Origin: a virus
DNA: 47,178 bases
Direction: 5' to 3' (one strand)
Virus record (IMG/VR): IMGVR_UViG_3300035701_000061
Location: 1 to 47,178 of that record
Part shown: piece after piece, positions 14,762 to 45,828 of the stretch
Layout: each line of letters starts with the position of its first letter
Position numbering within the stretch: position 1 is the first letter of the stretch
Made by a program: the position numbers and the translations under genes
The notes under the pieces: model-generated
The model's input: only the letters and a program-made list of their open reading frames with translations
The model's database searches: none
What the model was told of the DNA's origin: nothing

Positions 14762-15070
14762 TCACCTCCTTATCTCACGAATGCAACGGACTCTATTAAT
14801 GAAGCGCCTGAAATCCCAACCCTGGAGGCCACCGTCGATGTCCTGGATGTACGCGCCGATGCTATCGTCCGTAATAGAGGACCAGTACCAAGCCTTTTCA
14901 AAACTACCTATTTCTTTCCTATGTTCATATATTAACATTAATTCCGTCCTAGTTGGTAATCTCCAACCTTCAGGATTATCCTTAAATTTTTCCATCGCTT
15001 CGTCCCAAGTCATTTCGTTAGATTCATCTTTCTCTGCTACTTCAAAATTAAATGTTTCATTTATTATCAT
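14762..15070 (-). CDS. C-type-lectin-like (DUF1566-like) protein A, DGR-target-like
   Basis: 102 residues. The core (TWDEAMEKFKDN..GWRLPTR.EL...YEHR, about residues 21-52, then YWSS and a C-terminal NRVRC) is the DUF1566/Lcl-type C-type lectin fold used by many phage and DGR variable proteins. The segment from the first YWSS Trp to the final Cys (bases 14890-14783) is where it differs from paralogues B (15345-15860) and C (17412-17723). There, differences fall on the first two bases of NNC/NNT codons while third bases and the intervening codons stay the same. The patch is visibly richer in G and C than its surroundings. No signal peptide. Ligand unknown. Confidence 0.8.
   Translation of the reverse strand: MIINETFNFEVAEKDESNEMTWDEAMEKFKDNPEGWRLPTRTELMLIYEHRKEIGSFEKAWYWSSITDDSIGAYIQDIDGGLQGWDFRRFINRVRCIREIRR
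14783..14890 (-). other. Candidate DGR variable region, copy A
   Basis: 36 codons bounded by TGG-TAC-TGG and TGC. Compared codon by codon with copies B and C, fixed codons (TGG, TCC, GCG, TAC, CAG, GGC, CAG, TGG, AAT) alternate with variable ones such as GAC/TAC/CAC, GGC/CTC/TTC, ATC/TAC/CTC and CGC/TTC/CTC. All of these can come from AAC or AAT by changing only adenines. This is the established signature of adenine mutagenesis by a DGR reverse transcriptase. The template is not visible in the window. Confidence 0.6.
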
Positions 15071-15348
15071 TTTTCACCTTCTTTTAATGCTTCTTGGGCT
15101 AATTCATAACCATTATTTCTTGAATACCAATGACAATTTACTTTTGGCTCCATTATATCTCCACTCCAATTTAATTGATTTGCATATTGTTCAAGCACTT
15201 CCCTATATTTTTTATTTTGTTTTTCAAGTTTTTCTATATATCCATTGCATTCATACATTGCTGTTTCATATGGATTAACACCTTCATCACTATATGAACC
15301 CTTGTAGTCGATTGCAGTTTTCCTTATGACTTGTAAATATTTATTCAT
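15067..15348 (-). CDS. Unknown small soluble protein
   Basis: 93 residues, helical, with a coiled-coil-like middle (NGYIEKLEKQNKKYREVLEQ) and a C-terminal W-Y-S-R-N-N-G-Y-E-L-A-Q-E-A segment. The AGGAGGAAAAATG context gives a good ribosome binding site. It overlaps the start of lectin-like gene A by 4 bases (ATGA) and the end of gene B by 4 bases. This places it in one tightly coupled unit between two DGR-target-like genes. I do not recognise a family. Confidence 0.75.
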   Translation of the reverse strand: MNKYLQVIRKTAIDYKGSYSDEGVNPYETAMYECNGYIEKLEKQNKKYREVLEQYANQLNWSGDIMEPKVNCHWYSRNNGYELAQEALKEGEK

Positions 15349-15860
15349 TTTTCCTCCTTCTTTATATCCCTGACACAGCGAACTCTATTAATGATGAACC
15401 TGTAGTCCCAATACTGGATGCCATTGTAGAAGTTCTGGTAGTACGCGAGGTAGTTAATGTACGTAGTAGAGGACCAGTACCAGACTTTTTTAAGATTACC
15501 TAGTTCTTCACGATGTTCATACATAAATAACAATTCTATTCTAGTTGGTAATCTCCATCCATCTTTGTTGTCTTTAAACTTATCCATCGCTTCGTCCCAA
15601 GTCATTTTCTCAGGTTCATCTTTCTCAGCTACTTCAAAATTTATATGTTTTTCTAATATTATTTCTCCTCTATTTAGTGTTGCTTCCCCGTTGCTGCACT
15701 CGCTCAAATTATAAACTACACCCACACCCTTACAATTTCTGCACATCTCTGCAATTGTACTTGAAGACCACGGGCATCCTGGCAATGCGGTATAAAATCC
15801 ACCTGCAACATTCCCATGACCGTCACATATCGGGCATTTTTGTTGTATAAAGTATTTCAT
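15345..15860 (-). CDS. Zinc-finger plus C-type-lectin-like protein B, DGR-target-like
   Basis: 171 residues from the ATG at 15860 (GGGAGA about 8 bases upstream); an ATG four codons earlier is possible. The N-terminal part has two DnaJ-like C-x-x-C-x-G-x-G motifs (CPICDGHG near residue 9 and CRNCKGVG near residue 40). The C-terminal 100 residues match lectin-like proteins A and C, so this is a fusion of a metal-binding module to the same domain. The variable segment is 15375-15482. The fused zinc module could be a tether or a partner-binding part. Its function is unknown. Confidence 0.8.
   Translation of the reverse strand: MKYFIQQKCPICDGHGNVAGGFYTALPGCPWSSSTIAEMCRNCKGVGVVYNLSECSNGEATLNRGEIILEKHINFEVAEKDEPEKMTWDEAMDKFKDNKDGWRLPTRIELLFMYEHREELGNLKKVWYWSSTTYINYLAYYQNFYNGIQYWDYRFIINRVRCVRDIKKEEK
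15375..15482 (-). other. Candidate DGR variable region, copy B
   Basis: Same 36-codon frame as copy A. This copy keeps the most AAC/AAT and TAC codons. The hypothetical template inferred from all three would carry AAC or AAT at the variable positions. The flanks TGGTACTGGTCCTCT and ATTAATAGAGT are the same as in copy A. Confidence 0.6.
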
Positions 15861-15914
15861 TTTTTCTCCCATTTCTATAGTCTTCTATTTCGACAATATT
15901 ATCATTCATTCTCT

Positions 15915-16223
15915 TTAATCAGTAACGGCCCTTGTTTCTTCTTCCCAATGATCATATTCCCTGACTCTGTCAACAATATAATCACCTATCGGGACTTCAA
16001 TAGTTTTATGTTCTTCGTGGATTAATAAACCACTCTTAATAACTTTCAAAAATCTATTCTTTTTTTCATCTTCATAAAATTCAAAATCGTTAAAGGTTAA
16101 TTTATGAGAATGGCCAGTTGCTTCTCCTTCCAACAATATGTTTGTTTTTAAGTCTTTTAATCCTTTTTCTGGAATTTTTTTAATGCGTTTCAACAGAATG
16201 TCCCCTTGTTGAATAAATGCCAT
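15915..16223 (-). CDS. Conserved phage protein with GEATGHSH motif
   Basis: 102 residues from the ATG at 16223 (AGGAGG about 6 bases upstream). Contains MAFIQQGDILLKRI, GEATGHSHKL near residue 37, IHEEHKTIEVPIGDY near residue 69 and a C-terminal EETRAVTD. This beta-barrel-like family recurs in many phages. The repeated His residues might bind metal but no activity is established. It follows the DUF6745-like repeat protein by 9 bases, and the pair looks operonic. Confidence 0.75.
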   Translation of the reverse strand: MAFIQQGDILLKRIKKIPEKGLKDLKTNILLEGEATGHSHKLTFNDFEFYEDEKKNRFLKVIKSGLLIHEEHKTIEVPIGDYIVDRVREYDHWEEETRAVTD

Positions 16224-16231
16224 ATTTCCTC

Positions 16232-17362
16232 CTATGTTAATGTTATTGGTTCTTCCCATTTATCTATATTGTTTCTCCATTTTAGGGCCTCTTCTACTGT
16301 TTTACATTCTGGATGTACGCCCTCTATGTGCCAAACATCTTCCATGCTTGGATTTTTCATTTTAAGAAAAGGGCGAATTCTTTCGTCTTCTAACTTTAAA
16401 GATATTAGCTCATAGGTCCCCTGTTTGTCTATAATTTTTGCACCCAAGGCAAGATAAATTCTTTTAATTCCAATCTTCCTAACAATCTCGCGTCTTATTT
16501 CTACATTTTTTTCTGTTAGAATAATTTTGGGATCTAATTGATCTGCGGGGGTCATTACTATTTCTTTTGGAACTTTTATTCCGTTTAGCGAATAAACCTT
16601 TAATAGCCCCCCCTCATACTCTACAGTAGGTCCAGTTTCATTATGAAGCCTACCATTTTTCATCTTTATAGTTATTGGTTTTTCTGAGACACAACAAAAT
16701 TCTTGTAAGGGATAGCAAGGCCCAACATTAGCTATGTTTGTAAAAATTTTATAGTTATCATTATATTTTACATTACATTCTTTCTCAAAAAAATCATAAA
16801 AACTATTCCAATAGGCCCAATATCCGTCACAGTAGGGCCGAACAAACTTCCCAACCTGGCTCCCAACCTGGCTCTCAACCTGGTCCCCAACCTGGCTCCT
16901 AACCTGGTCCCCAACCTGGCTCCTAACCTGGTCCCCAACCTGGCTCCTAACCTGGTCCCCAACCTGGCTCCTAACCTGGTCCCTAACCTGGCTCCCAACC
17001 TGGCTCCAAACCTGGCTCCCAACCTGGCTCCTAACCTGGTCCCTAACCTGGCTCCCAACCTGGCTCTCAACCTGGTCCCCAACCTGGCTCCAAACCTGGC
17101 TCCCTTTTGTGTTTAATAAATTATAAATATAATAAATGGATAAATAAGCAACAACAGGATTAGAAAAGTAAAAAACTGGAACGGGATTTAACTTAAGAAT
17201 TTGTTTATAAAATTCATTTATATTTTCAGTGGTTTCTTTTCTATCAATTCTTTCAGTAGACAATCCAATTTTTATCCATTTGTCCACATAATAAGGAAAT
17301 TTATCAATCTGTTCTTGTCTTAATTTATCAATCATTTTTACATTAGAAGATTCAATTTTCAT
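16232..17362 (-). CDS. DUF6745-like protein with 21 tetrapeptide repeats
   Basis: 376 residues. An N-terminal domain (residues 1-87) is followed by 21 tandem copies of a [S/D]QV[G/R/W/E] tetrapeptide (residues 88-171). A C-terminal domain holds ITIKMKNGRLHNETGPTVEYEGG and a W-H-I-E-G-V segment. Proteins with this layout and long 'DQVxxQV' arrays occur in bacteria and phages as DUF6745. The array may form a beta-solenoid or coiled rod. It is encoded by a 12-bp tandem repeat and so is likely to vary in copy number. The start overlaps the stop of the short ORF before it. Confidence 0.75.
   Translation of the reverse strand: MKIESSNVKMIDKLRQEQIDKFPYYVDKWIKIGLSTERIDRKETTENINEFYKQILKLNPVPVFYFSNPVVAYLSIYYIYNLLNTKGSQVWSQVGDQVESQVGSQVRDQVRSQVGSQVWSQVGSQVRDQVRSQVGDQVRSQVGDQVRSQVGDQVRSQVGDQVESQVGSQVGKFVRPYCDGYWAYWNSFYDFFEKECNVKYNDNYKIFTNIANVGPCYPLQEFCCVSEKPITIKMKNGRLHNETGPTVEYEGGLLKVYSLNGIKVPKEIVMTPADQLDPKIILTEKNVEIRREIVRKIGIKRIYLALGAKIIDKQGTYELISLKLEDERIRPFLKMKNPSMEDVWHIEGVHPECKTVEEALKWRNNIDKWEEPITLT
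16850..17101 (-). repeat. Tandem 12-bp minisatellite coding tetrapeptide repeats
   Basis: 21 units of about 12 bases; on the + strand they read AACCTGGCTCCT, AACCTGGTCCCC and close variants. They sit fully inside the 376-residue gene and keep frame. The repeat is also open in another frame (RLGARLGT-type peptides), so slippage in multiples of 12 never breaks the gene. Confidence 0.95.
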
Positions 17363-17415
17363 TCTATAAATATTCCCGCAATAAGCCGAACTAACTCACT
17401 TCGATATTTTCTCAT
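17359..17415 (-). CDS. Possible 18-residue coupling peptide
   Basis: A short frame MRKYRSELVRLIAGIFIE starts with ATG overlapping the TGA stop of lectin-like gene C (ATGA at 17415-17412). It ends with a TGA overlapping the ATG of the 376-residue gene (17362). The double overlap suggests ribosomes pass through it to reach the larger gene. It may have no function beyond coupling. Confidence 0.4.
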   Translation of the reverse strand: MRKYRSELVRLIAGIFIE

Positions 17416-17723
17416 TTTATACTCCTGGCACAACGGACCCTATTATGATCGAGCATGTAGTTCCAATTCTGAGTGCCCCTGTAGAAGTTCTGGAGGTACG
17501 CGAAGTTGATATGGTGCTTAACCGGAGTAGCGGACCAGTACCAATCCTCTTCAAAATTACCAACTTCTTCTTTATGTTCGTACATCAGTAACAATTCTTC
17601 CCTGGTTGGCAATCTCCAACCATCTTTATTGTCTTTAAACTTATCCATCGCTTCGTTCCATGTCATTTTCTCAGGTTCATCTTTCTCAGCTACTTCAAAA
17701 TTTATATGTTTTTCTATTATCAT
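17412..17723 (-). CDS. C-type-lectin-like (DUF1566-like) protein C, DGR-target-like
   Basis: 103 residues, same architecture as protein A (TWNEAMDKFKDN, GWRLPTREEL, YEHKEEVGNF, YWSA, NRVRC). The variable segment 17430-17543 is two codons longer than in A and B. AGGAGG lies about 5 bases before the ATG at 17723. The N-terminal 55 residues are nearly the same as the corresponding part of B, so these genes come from duplication with change focused on the C-terminus. It overlaps the upstream gene by 4 bases. Confidence 0.8.
   Translation of the reverse strand: MIIEKHINFEVAEKDEPEKMTWNEAMDKFKDNKDGWRLPTREELLLMYEHKEEVGNFEEDWYWSATPVKHHINFAYLQNFYRGTQNWNYMLDHNRVRCARSIK
17430..17543 (-). other. Candidate DGR variable region, copy C
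   Basis: 38 codons; two extra codons (GTT AAG) follow the first fixed block. The remaining codons align with A and B: CAC/CAT/ATC/AAC/TTC against GAC/GAT/AGC/ATC/GGC in A and TAC/ATT/AAC/TAC/CTC in B. Third bases agree in every one of these five columns. Confidence 0.6.
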
Positions 17724-18166
17724 TTTTCCTCCTTTTTTATATTTAACATTAGTTCTTCAGGTTCTTTGGGTATATAGGGAAACTCTACCATTGTACAACT
17801 ACCCTTACCCGTATACCAACTATTACCGCCATCATCCGAAAACACCTTACCTTCAATATTATATGGCTTACCTTCAAACCTGTCTGCTTGTTTAAAAATT
17901 GTAGAACATCTATTGTTTTGAAATACACCGTTGCCAACCTCAGTCCACTCATCATCGTTACCCGTTAAAGATGTTAGGGGTTTAAAAGCTGCTAAGATAT
18001 TAAATATTTGCCTAATCATACTAGCGGATGCGCCGCTGTGGCCTTGTCTGCTAAAGACTTCTATAAGTTCCCTTACTGCCTCTCCAACCATTCCACCATA
18101 GACACTATCTTTGTCAAATAATTTAGCAAGGGTTAATTCTTTTATTGCATGTTTTGTTAAACTCAT
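17720..18166 (-). CDS. Conserved phage protein (GHSGASASMI type)
   Basis: 148 residues from the ATG at 18166, chosen because GGAGGAAAA lies directly upstream. Contains FSRQGHSGASASMIRQIFNI at about residues 39-58, then PLTSLTGNDDEWTEV and QNNRCSTIFKQ. This set of motifs recurs in phages of many hosts in early regions. No structure or function is assigned. The ATGA-type overlap with the lectin-like gene C places them in one unit. Confidence 0.75.
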   Translation of the reverse strand: MSLTKHAIKELTLAKLFDKDSVYGGMVGEAVRELIEVFSRQGHSGASASMIRQIFNILAAFKPLTSLTGNDDEWTEVGNGVFQNNRCSTIFKQADRFEGKPYNIEGKVFSDDGGNSWYTGKGSCTMVEFPYIPKEPEELMLNIKKEEK

Positions 18167-18205
18167 TTTTCCTCCGCTTTGTCGCATATTACGTTATGCG
18201 ATTAT

Positions 18206-39899: not shown

Positions 39900-41741
39900 A
39901 TGAGTATTACTGCTAGTGAAATTTATGAATTAAATAAAATGAATGGTACAGCAAGAAAAGTACAATTAGGTACTTTGATTGCTGCTGCCGAAGCTGCATC
40001 AGGCGGTGCAAGTGCATTAGTTAGTGGTCATTTATTTGTAGGTAGTGCTGGCAATTTAGCCGCAGATTGTGCTGTGTCTGGTGATATTACAATGGCAAAT
40101 GATGGTGCAGTTGCAATAACAACTGACGCTATTATTAACGCTGATGTTAACCCTGCTGCTGCGATTGCCTGGTCAAAAATGGCAGCGTTGACGGCTGGTT
40201 ATATTGTAATTGGTCATTCTGATACTGTTCCAACTGAAAGGGTAGTTTCTGGTGATATCACATTATCAAGTGCTGGAGTTGTAGCAATTGCTCCTGCAGT
40301 TATTATAAACGCGGATGTTAATGCTGCTGCTGCAATTGCGTATAGTAAATTGGCTATAATGGCTGCCAACAAAATACTAGCTGGTGTTGCCAACGTGGCC
40401 ACAGTTTGTGCCGTTGCTGGCGATTTAACGATGACTGCTGCTGGTACAGATGCAACATTCGCAATTGCTGCAGATTGTATTATTAATGCAGATGTTAAAA
40501 CTAATGCTGCAATCGCATTTAGTAAAATGGAAATTACTGCTGCAAACAAGATAATTGCTGGTGTGGCTAACGTTGCTACTATTTGCGCTGTCGCTGGTGA
40601 TTTAACAATGACCGCTGCTGGCACAGATGCGACATTTGCAATTGCAAGTGCTGTTATCATCAATGCAGATATTAATGCTTCCGCTGCTATAGCATGGAGT
40701 AAAATGGCTGCATTAACACAACATTGTATACTTGCTGGTGTTGCTGTTGGCGGAGTTCCGACAGTATGTGCGGTAGCCGGAGATCTTACAATGACGGCTG
40801 CTGGTACGGATGCAACTTTTGCAATAGCATCTGCGGTAATTGTAAATGCTGACGTAAATGCATCTGCTGCGATTGCATGGAGCAAAATGGCTGCTATTAC
40901 TAGCAACTATATTCTTGCTGGTGTTTCCAGTGTAGCTACAGTTTGTAGTGTTGCTGGTGATATCGCACTTAGTGCTGCCGTAACTACTGCTACATTCTCG
41001 ATTGGTGCAAGTAAGGTTGAACAGTTCATGTTTGATAGGGTTGATACATATGAGGATTTTGAAGTAAACCCTGTTATGTGTAAAGCTGCTGGACTTGGCG
41101 CTTGTACTGGAACTGCTGGCGATGTTAACTTACTGCAAACAGATCATAACGTATTTGAATGGCATGTTAAGGGAACTCAGACTATTCTTGCTCCAGTATT
41201 TGGTGCAACCGGATTGGATATTGCTCAGGATGTTGCGAATGCTGGTGATGGTGCAGAATATACACAAGGTATTACTGCTAGATCAAAAAGTGCATTTGTG
41301 GTCGGCACTGATGGTGCAGTATATTTTAAGGCAAGAGTGCTTGTTCATGATGTAACTGGACTGGCAGAACTTGCAATCGGTTTCCGTAAGGCTGAAGCAT
41401 ATCAAGCAGCTGTTGATAATTATGATGAAATGGCATGTATTAATGTTCAGGCTGGAGATGTATTGATTGAAACCATTCTGAACAATGGTGCAACAACAAC
41501 TACAGATTCTACAGATAATTTAACAGATGATCAATACATAGAAGTTACTGTTAACGTATCATCTGCTGGAGTTGTTACGTATCTGAGAAGTTTAAATGGT
41601 GGAGCAACTGCTGTTCCAACAGTAACCGCCGCCTTCACGTTTGATAATGGCGAAGTTATTGTACCATTTATATTCTTCATGCACGCTGCTGATTTTGCTG
41701 ATGCTACAATATTGCAACATTGGGAATGCGGTTTGCAATAA
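39900..41741 (+). CDS. Repeat-rich head fibre / decoration protein
   Basis: 613 residues. N-terminal ITASEIYELNKMNGTARKVQ resembles the capsid- or virion-anchoring part of phage head fibres. Residues about 40-380 hold six repeats of roughly 58 residues with G-D-L-T-M-T-A-A-G-T-D-A-T-F-A-I-A...I-I-N-A-D-V-N...AAIA.SKM. The last about 230 residues form a beta-rich domain (DFEVNP, F-R-K-A-E-A-Y) like ConA/lectin jelly rolls. The repeats likely form a beta-helical shaft and the end domain binds cell surfaces. GGGAAA lies about 7 bases before the ATG. Confidence 0.75.
   Translation: MSITASEIYELNKMNGTARKVQLGTLIAAAEAASGGASALVSGHLFVGSAGNLAADCAVSGDITMANDGAVAITTDAIINADVNPAAAIAWSKMAALTAGYIVIGHSDTVPTERVVSGDITLSSAGVVAIAPAVIINADVNAAAAIAYSKLAIMAANKILAGVANVATVCAVAGDLTMTAAGTDATFAIAADCIINADVKTNAAIAFSKMEITAANKIIAGVANVATICAVAGDLTMTAAGTDATFAIASAVIINADINASAAIAWSKMAALTQHCILAGVAVGGVPTVCAVAGDLTMTAAGTDATFAIASAVIVNADVNASAAIAWSKMAAITSNYILAGVSSVATVCSVAGDIALSAAVTTATFSIGASKVEQFMFDRVDTYEDFEVNPVMCKAAGLGACTGTAGDVNLLQTDHNVFEWHVKGTQTILAPVFGATGLDIAQDVANAGDGAEYTQGITARSKSAFVVGTDGAVYFKARVLVHDVTGLAELAIGFRKAEAYQAAVDNYDEMACINVQAGDVLIETILNNGATTTTDSTDNLTDDQYIEVTVNVSSAGVVTYLRSLNGGATAVPTVTAAFTFDNGEVIVPFIFFMHAADFADATILQHWECGLQ
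40020..41000 (+). repeat. Coding tandem repeats of fibre shaft
   Basis: About six degenerate copies of a 165-180 base unit. Each contains a 'GCTGGTGATTTAACAATGAC' type segment and 'GCAGATGTTAATGCT', with many synonymous changes. Boundaries are approximate. The degeneracy suggests protein-level selection rather than recent amplification. Confidence 0.75.
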
Positions 41742-45100: not shown

Positions 45101-45614
45101 AGACGTAGACGCTCAAATTGTTGTTTACTTAGATATCCTGTCTGGTTATTTGCTTAGTAATGGAGTATGTTTCTTTGAAACATTAATTTATTTACCAATA
45201 CTTTCTACTGCCATTCAAGAATATGAAATTTTAGTTGGTTTGGGTAATTCACTTCCCCTGCTTGGTTCTTTTGCAGATCATACAAATGGGGTTTATTTTA
45301 AATATCGTAGGGCCACAAGTGTTAATTGGATATGCGTTACCGCTGATAATGGTTCTTTGACTTCAACAACTACGGCAACCGCAGTCGGTGCCACAGCATG
45401 GATTAAATTAGCAGCAATAATAAATGCTGCTGGAACAAGTGTGGGTTTTTATATCAATGGAACATTGGTGGCAACACACACGACTAATATACCAATAGCT
45501 GCAGGAAGATTGATCACACCAAGCCTTTCTATACGCAAAACTGTAGGAACAACGGCAAGAGTTATGGATGTGGATTATCATACTAGCGGTATTAGATACA
45601 CAACACCAAGATAA
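42195..45614 (+). CDS. Tail fibre with C-terminal lectin-like domain
   Basis: 1139 residues. The N-terminal FTINPTDGKTDFVRSDADIL and HNLLGGKQGGTTNEYYHLTS stretch is typical of phage tail or head fibres. Beta-rich shaft segments with G-I-G-T-A-V-P-type turns follow. The last about 200 residues (CYCDEDFRGPVAPIGKWGWG onward) look like a ConA/LamG lectin domain. No autoproteolytic chaperone domain is visible. Receptor binding is the likely role. The last 118 bases recur at the left edge of the window. Confidence 0.8.
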   Translation: MKFTINPTDGKTDFVRSDADILAIIPSMTHNLLGGKQGGTTNEYYHLTSAENSGDWGIKKLSNISSSGGYEYLNMAIAGNTYGVLSQLAPGGNNRIIISGAFYAYGTNATTGQGLTGIMGIAEPHSITDTSIGGYFCLGYGNTLNDPTVDEIGLYVVHSCAGTDANAKKWAFYNATNDNGAYVGGKVFLGGDNHKTYWGHDKDASIYYDGTDLNINPKEVGTGIVKISSGLIVTGTTTLAVALTGMTYLTAGVVSVTTDLPTATTIGGAYIYRVSGTDVAIADGGTGVSSWTQYGIVYASTTTALSQIGAGTIHQLLTSGGAGIPTWSTVTENAGALAAITTIGMSGALTNTLAIGNAPLVVTSTTVCTNLNADLWDGYQFSDYLNQAVKTTSSPQFANVKITNGGYIYPSANATTAINIAQLDGTCFCVWDTTNKRMGIGAATAPTSTLTVSGDTAVTGKIGIGTPASINRAITIKDAGKGTLGLETTATGGWLGMLSTNDVSKIGYFGLGSSLYSDYASAANNAMIVCSAGQQINMYVGSTLMTAIATTTAQFNRIVDIPIGTLRSGTDTTVTTSGVHVQYQKDETPCYLYNTQHMVVTTTVVNNGGASWQLFYRNAAGSPFVIGVAITVTKKQEITLPSDITSFGLLCQSAGGSNSSTNITTVVPTGGCYINGSGYIEGSLEVGETMTVGNFAVENSFVIPNNKYIKFLTALGADDGTGFKRTTSDGFFLAYNANSMVFQAIGDNDFRIWNSAGVAQYVFKLAVGETTFNDAGANIDFRFESDANNSMFFIDGGASRVGIGTAVPDVVLDVRGATNIVVDLMNILKLKRPLATATALAGIESQLYNASSAYVAYGNFGVQIETNTAGAERGNFAVWLRNTDAAEPTANAARFTISSLGNTSILGNLDFKGIDLSKMCYCDEDFRGPVAPIGKWGWGSVAYGSATVSTDITLADGNHAGIIALSTGTDVDAQIVVYLDILSGYLLSNGVCFFETLIYLPILSTAIQEYEILVGLGNSLPLLGSFADHTNGVYFKYRRATSVNWICVTADNGSLTSTTTATAVGATAWIKLAAIINAAGTSVGFYINGTLVATHTTNIPIAAGRLITPSLSIRKTVGTTARVMDVDYHTSGIRYTTPR

Positions 45615-45623
45615 AGGAGATAT
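45497..45623 (+). repeat. 127-bp exact direct repeat, right copy
   Basis: Same as bases 1-127, ending at the base before the two sequences diverge. Contains the fibre C-terminus and the ribosome binding site of the small gene at 45628. Confidence 0.95.
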
Positions 45624-45627
45624 TATA

Positions 45628-45828
45628 ATGAATAAAGATGATGCAAAAAAGATTTTGGAAGATGCTTTAATTAAGATAAAAGAGTATGAAGAAATAGCAA
45701 ACATGGCGGCCAATCTAATAGCATCAATGAAGTATCTTGATACGGAAGATGATAAAATTTTAGATGCTAAGAAACAGGAATTGACAGATGCCGCAACCGC
45801 TGCTAATATATCTCCTGTAAAACCCTAA
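45628..45828 (+). CDS. Small coiled-coil phage protein, copy 2
   Basis: 66 residues, near-identical to the product of 134-331 (most residues the same, differing at residues 6, 47 and the last five). AAGGAGAT stands about 8 bases before the ATG. Two diverged versions after the same fibre end show that the two copies are real distinct alleles, not one sequence assembled twice. Confidence 0.85.
   Translation: MNKDDAKKILEDALIKIKEYEEIANMAANLIASMKYLDTEDDKILDAKKQELTDAATAANISPVKP

Follow-up and report, generated by a model that had tools for sequence, protein, structure and literature searches.

A phage record with three lectin-fold genes

The window, by which we mean the whole 47,178-base virus record analysed here, carries three small genes, A, B and C, encoding Lcl_C (DUF1566) proteins of the C-type-lectin fold, each with a variable repeat (VR) in the C-terminal part of its product (Table 1). 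Exactly three Lcl_C-type copies were detected in a profile search of the window. The Pfam gathering cut-off for Lcl_C (PF07603) is 34.9 bits; B (39.4 bits) and C (41.8) pass it, and A falls slightly under, yet is a clear paralogue. In a codon alignment the three genes are homologous over the whole domain. VR limits were set from TGG TAC TGG through the last AAT, giving lengths of 96-102 bp. As in targets of diversity-generating retroelements (DGRs), each VR lies near the 3′ end of its gene, within the lectin-fold domain, with only ~10-14 codons after it. The N-terminus of the gene B product contains a putative zinc-binding segment with two CxxCxGxG-like motifs, which neither A nor C has, nor the further copy D described below.

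Table 1. Lectin-fold genes, their variable repeats and neighbouring genes in the window
Feature	Position	Strand	Remarks
Gene A, 102-aa Lcl_C (DUF1566) C-type-lectin-fold protein	14762..15070	-	PF07603, 34.1 bits; VR C-terminal
VR of gene A, 32 codons, TGG TAC TGG ... AAT	14795..14890	-	variation at positions 1 and 2, position 3 kept, compared with B and D
93-aa accessory gene	15067..15348	-	overlaps upstream B and downstream A by 4 bp each
Gene B, 175 aa, Lcl_C domain with VR at C-terminal end	15345..15872	-	PF07603, E 8.2e-10
VR of gene B	15387..15482	-	codon alignment
Gene C, 103-aa Lcl_C protein	17412..17723	-	PF07603, E 1.5e-10
VR of gene C, two extra codons	17442..17543	-	codon alignment
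Predicted Tad3 (type I Thoeris inhibitor)	17720..18187	-	PF25185, E 9.4e-37

The product of the 93-aa accessory gene matched no Pfam family. The predicted Tad3 gene is located directly upstream of gene C, its stop overlapping the start of C by 4 bp, and the two are apparently translationally coupled; Tad3 is genomic context, not a DGR component. Between genes B and C sits a DUF6745 protein gene (16232-17362), in which a repeat at 16849-17104 consists of ~21 copies of the 12-bp unit TCCCAACCTGGC, encoding alternating QVGD/QVRS. Tail and head genes are on the strand opposite to the operon of A, B and C, so these three are probably early, non-structural genes. Elsewhere, a 613-aa gene (39900-41741), whose product has weak similarity to a minor tail protein family, contains long internal repeats with a period of 177 bp (40039-41009).

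The record is linear by IMG/VR class and may be incomplete. Its first 315 bases match positions 45497-45809, 1.37 kb from the right end, at 98% identity in direct orientation, and past this repeat both copies continue into differing sequence. Such a repeat points to a circularly permuted genome that is close to complete, in which strains vary at the junction. Terminase/packaging, portal, primase-like, Sak4-like recombinase, replication and tail genes are all carried. With this terminal repeat, and with packaging, replication and tail genes present, the window may be nearly complete.

A related cassette in an unrelated phage

A fourth copy, gene D, was found in the 41,463-bp record IMGVR_UViG_3300031999_000069 (L001:10010-10327), hereafter the sister phage, also linear by IMG/VR class and possibly incomplete. 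The two records share a 575-bp cassette at 91% DNA identity, in which the 93-aa gene precedes gene A or D; its product in the sister phage is 98% identical to that of the window. No similarity was found between the terminases or the portals of the two phages, and outside the cassette their common genes are a handful with distant similarity, a metallophosphoesterase (37%) among them. The cassette has therefore moved between unrelated phages; the near-identity of the two copies in the 93-aa gene and at the start of A/D indicates that the transfer was recent. An AlphaFold model of D, built from an alignment with 14 relatives, reached a pLDDT of 87. Among solved structures it came closest to the C-terminal domain of Legionella Lcl (8q4e, TM 0.76), with C-type lectins ranking next; its best viral match was a DUF1566 phage protein.

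Codon positions affected in the variable repeats

When A, B, C and D are aligned, 22 of the 32 VR codons are variable. The original prediction described three lectin-like paralogues whose C-terminal codons vary at positions 1 and 2 and keep position 3, with four exceptions, and the codon alignment agrees on both counts: third-position changes are limited to the same four codons (alignment columns 72, 74, 78 and 82), in one sequence each. Three of these exceptions belong to gene C, and show that it is either older or on another template.

The flanks behave in the opposite way. Numbers of changes at positions 1+2 and at position 3 were 23/1 in the VR against 16/25 in the flanks for the pair A and B (Fisher p=3.5e-6), 21/1 against 15/20 for A and D (p=4.7e-5), and 15/0 against 13/24 for B and D (p=8.6e-6). 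The excess of non-synonymous changes in the VR over its flanks, which marks DGR targets, was thus found in all three pairs (p=3.5e-6 to 4.7e-5). Third-position changes between A and D number 14 over the 53 codons that precede the VR, 1 over its 32 codons and 6 over the next 7, so that the island is bounded on both sides. Upstream of the VR the genes diverge in the ordinary manner, third positions first. For B and D, all third positions and scaffold bases of the VR and tail are identical, as expected if one template was copied, while the upstream parts differ at 37 sites. Plain recombination could account for the shared tail, which is identical in B and D to its 3′ end, but fails to explain why the VR differences are restricted to positions 1 and 2.

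Base composition at the variable sites points the same way. Among the 33 variable first and second positions, A is present in at least one copy at 24 and is the commonest base overall (49/132), and at least three different bases occur among the four copies at 12. Two-base codon changes with the third base kept are found (GGC/CTC, CGC/TTC, ATT/GGT). The transition to transversion ratio between B and D is 6:9 in the VR compared with 23:14 upstream, and such a loss of the transition excess is expected from random A-to-N replacement. We conclude that the statistics of the VRs match random replacement of template adenines and rule out ordinary divergence.

Two further claims of the original prediction had to be narrowed. 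The patches were said to be locally richer in G+C: all three VRs do exceed the rest of their gene (A, 0.546 versus 0.317; B, 0.435 versus 0.369; C, 0.491 versus 0.333), but the VR of B reaches only the 83rd percentile of the window. All variable columns were also thought to derive from AAC or AAT. Most do; TCT/GCT, ATT/ACT, ACG/CCG and AGG/ATG do not fit AAY, and would need ACT, AAT, ACG and AAG respectively as templates. The four third-base exceptions need some other cause.

Complete DGRs with homologous targets

Relatives were found at 19 loci in IMG/VR by profile search, and a reverse transcriptase (RT) is present in 5 of the 18 records that hold them, the sister phage excluded. Three viral contigs (G016, G018 and G020) contain complete DGRs, with RT and template repeat (TR), whose targets are homologous Lcl_C genes. 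In G016 (locus L032), three Lcl_C VR genes align to a single TR with 18, 15 and 10 adenine mismatches and no others in 60 bp; the RT closely follows the TR, and a small ORF ahead of the TR looks Avd-like on visual inspection of its sequence. The TR of G018 immediately precedes the RT, at ~76 kb, and is matched by a VR at ~22 kb with 14 adenine mismatches and no others in 45 bp. As some 54 kb separate this VR from its TR and RT, remote VRs do occur in DGRs with Lcl_C targets.

The third contig was reached with a loose VR pattern, which gave 34 matches in IMG/VR, mostly in unrelated proteins, the true relatives being L042 and L069. G020 (L069/L070) holds VR, TR and RT, and its TR reads CAG AAC TTC AAC AAC GGC AAC CAG AAC TGG AAT CAC AAG AAC AAC CAC AAC. 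All 17 codons align with the four genes A to D without a gap, and the scaffold codons CAG, GGC, CAG and TGG are identical throughout. Although this is the template of a homologous DGR and not the cognate one, the four genes vary at 18 of its 24 adenines compared with 6 of its 27 other sites (p=1.9e-4); with positions 1 and 2 only, the figures are 18/24 and 2/10 (p=0.005). No closer stand-in for the missing cognate template was available. Since homologous complete DGRs exist, and since the adenines of the G020 TR predict the variable sites, the VRs of A, B and C are very likely DGR variable repeats in C-type-lectin domains, and the original prediction gains strong support on this point.

Search for a reverse transcriptase and a template

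The prediction that the window lacks an RT frame and a fourth, adenine-rich copy held in every search made. The RVT_1 profile detected no RT in either phage, the 41.5-kb sister record having been searched in full, and six RTs taken from related records produced no tblastn hit better than E=0.07. A direct scan of both strands of the window and sister record revealed no TR. Once poly-A noise was removed, a search for a TR of the four genes in these two records and in the RT-bearing relatives returned VR-VR matches only. Neither of the two components of a complete DGR, an RT and an adenine-rich near-copy serving as TR, is thus found in the window or the sister record.

Looking further afield, VR/TR pattern scans yielded no matching TR in IMG/VR or in the GTDB species genomes scanned, and the exact TR/VR pattern was absent from the GTDB genomes. 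A GTDB protein scan with the four-sequence alignment produced 595 pattern-matching stretches, none of them relatives. Phage and plasmid collections gave no matches by tblastn or blastn, and a search of IMG/VR for terminase relatives, as a route to more complete kin of the phage, found none.

Origin of the variation

We infer mutagenic homing of the three VRs from their sequences. A TR outside the record would be reverse transcribed by an error-prone DGR RT that misincorporates at template adenines, and the cDNA would be written over the patch at the 3′ end of each gene. Codons that vary, for the most part AAY in the presumed template, would turn into NNY, third bases and scaffold codons staying template-like; the cognate TR would be expected to follow the pattern GCGTACNNCCAGNNCNNCNNCNNNGGCNNNCAGNNTTGG, with A at the N sites. 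The outcome would be small C-type-lectin-fold proteins with randomised binding faces. Most probably, the host or a co-resident element would supply both template and enzyme in trans.

One explanation dispenses with any retroelement and invokes positive selection together with gene conversion between the paralogues. Selection would likewise yield a non-synonymous excess, and the paralogues do lie within 3 kb of each other, but two-base codon changes that keep the third base, three or more bases at 12 sites in four copies, a reversed transition to transversion ratio and a match to the adenines of an independent DGR template are not expected from it. We regard this explanation as very improbable, and positive selection was rejected on the position, base-count and transition to transversion statistics. 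The VRs could instead be relicts: an ancestor with its own DGR diversified the genes, which later spread as cassettes and are by now ordinary variable genes. That neither carrier has an RT or TR, that the cassette moved recently between unrelated phages (near-identical 93-aa gene and start of A/D), and that C has third-base exceptions all agree with such a history. However, the VRs of B and D differ at 15 sites without a single third base among them, and A and D behave similarly despite their diverged flanks, so the VRs appear to have received new content after the flanks had diverged; relict status appears rather unlikely.

The last alternative is a DGR in cis but remote, with RT and TR in a part of the genome missing from the 47-kb contig. 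The linear class of the record leaves room for it, and the G018 arrangement makes such a distance possible inside one virus. It conflicts with the recurrence of the first 315 bp near the right end, which suggests a nearly closed genome, with the presence of packaging, replication and tail genes, and with the lack of an RT in the sister record as well, and we hold it to be unlikely. Supply in trans is the best reading because neither record has an RT or TR and the window may be nearly complete. The original prediction had placed RT and template in trans: both are indeed missing from the window, but the IMG/VR and GTDB scans turned up no matching TR, and their absence from two possibly incomplete phage records is no proof of trans supply. 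We lean slightly towards machinery provided from outside the phage. Taken as a whole, the reading that A, B and C are DGR targets, with template and RT most probably supplied in trans by the host or by an element sharing it, is in our view likely to be correct.

Comparison with known systems and possible role

In Bordetella phage BPP-1, the DGR target mtd is the tail-fibre tip, and RT, Avd and TR are in cis. The genes of the window resemble mtd in their lectin fold and C-terminal VR, but are small stand-alone domains in a non-structural operon. The G016 and G020 DGRs are closer: they have the homologous lectin domain, AAY-type variable codons, a VR at the 3′ end and templates with the same scaffold, Q-NF-NNG-NQ-N, and G016, like the window, has several VR genes in one element. 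Both differ from the window in having TR and RT near their targets, and an Avd-like gene.

Second VRs are known from Quimbyvirus, where the gene is non-structural (PMC8008677), and from gut prophages, where they lie near counter-defence genes (PMC12629997). These VR genes, like those of the window, are non-structural, off the tail genes and near counter-defence genes, but in both cases the RT is encoded by the same phage, whereas the window has three VR genes and no RT. In Thiohalocapsa PB-PSB1, DGR targets are diversified in trans by a TR of the same bacterial genome, which matches the VRs at all non-adenine sites (PMC10907252). There too, targets devoid of a working local RT/TR are apparently diversified by a DGR elsewhere; the partner TR is known in that case, while the targets of the window are on phages and their partner was not found. 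In a limited literature search, no published account was found of phage VR cassettes that lack an RT. VRs that are remote or served in trans are already known; VR-only cassettes common to unrelated phages look like a new form. The RT-centred approach of Roux et al. would miss VRs not adjacent to an RT (PMC8144416), and the VR cassettes of two unrelated phages that lack an RT point to a target class that escapes RT-centred DGR surveys.

The operon of A, B and C is non-structural, runs against the tail and head genes and adjoins Tad3; its VR proteins are therefore more probably binders that work inside the cell or in counter-defence than tail fibres. From this context, they may act inside the cell as diversified binders in phage-host conflict. 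VR targets beside a predicted anti-Thoeris gene add to reports that some hypervariable phage proteins serve phage-host conflict and not adsorption. We propose, tentatively, that VR-only cassettes pass between unrelated phages of one host, use the DGR enzyme and template of the host or of another element, and diversify small intracellular lectin-fold proteins of a counter-defence operon; such phages would be borrowing a diversification machine encoded elsewhere. Lcl_C genes with NNY-rich C-termini were also seen in three large viral records with no detectable RVT_1 (L004, L006 and L012, on contigs of 128, 97 and 58 kb); these are possibly further RT-less VRs.
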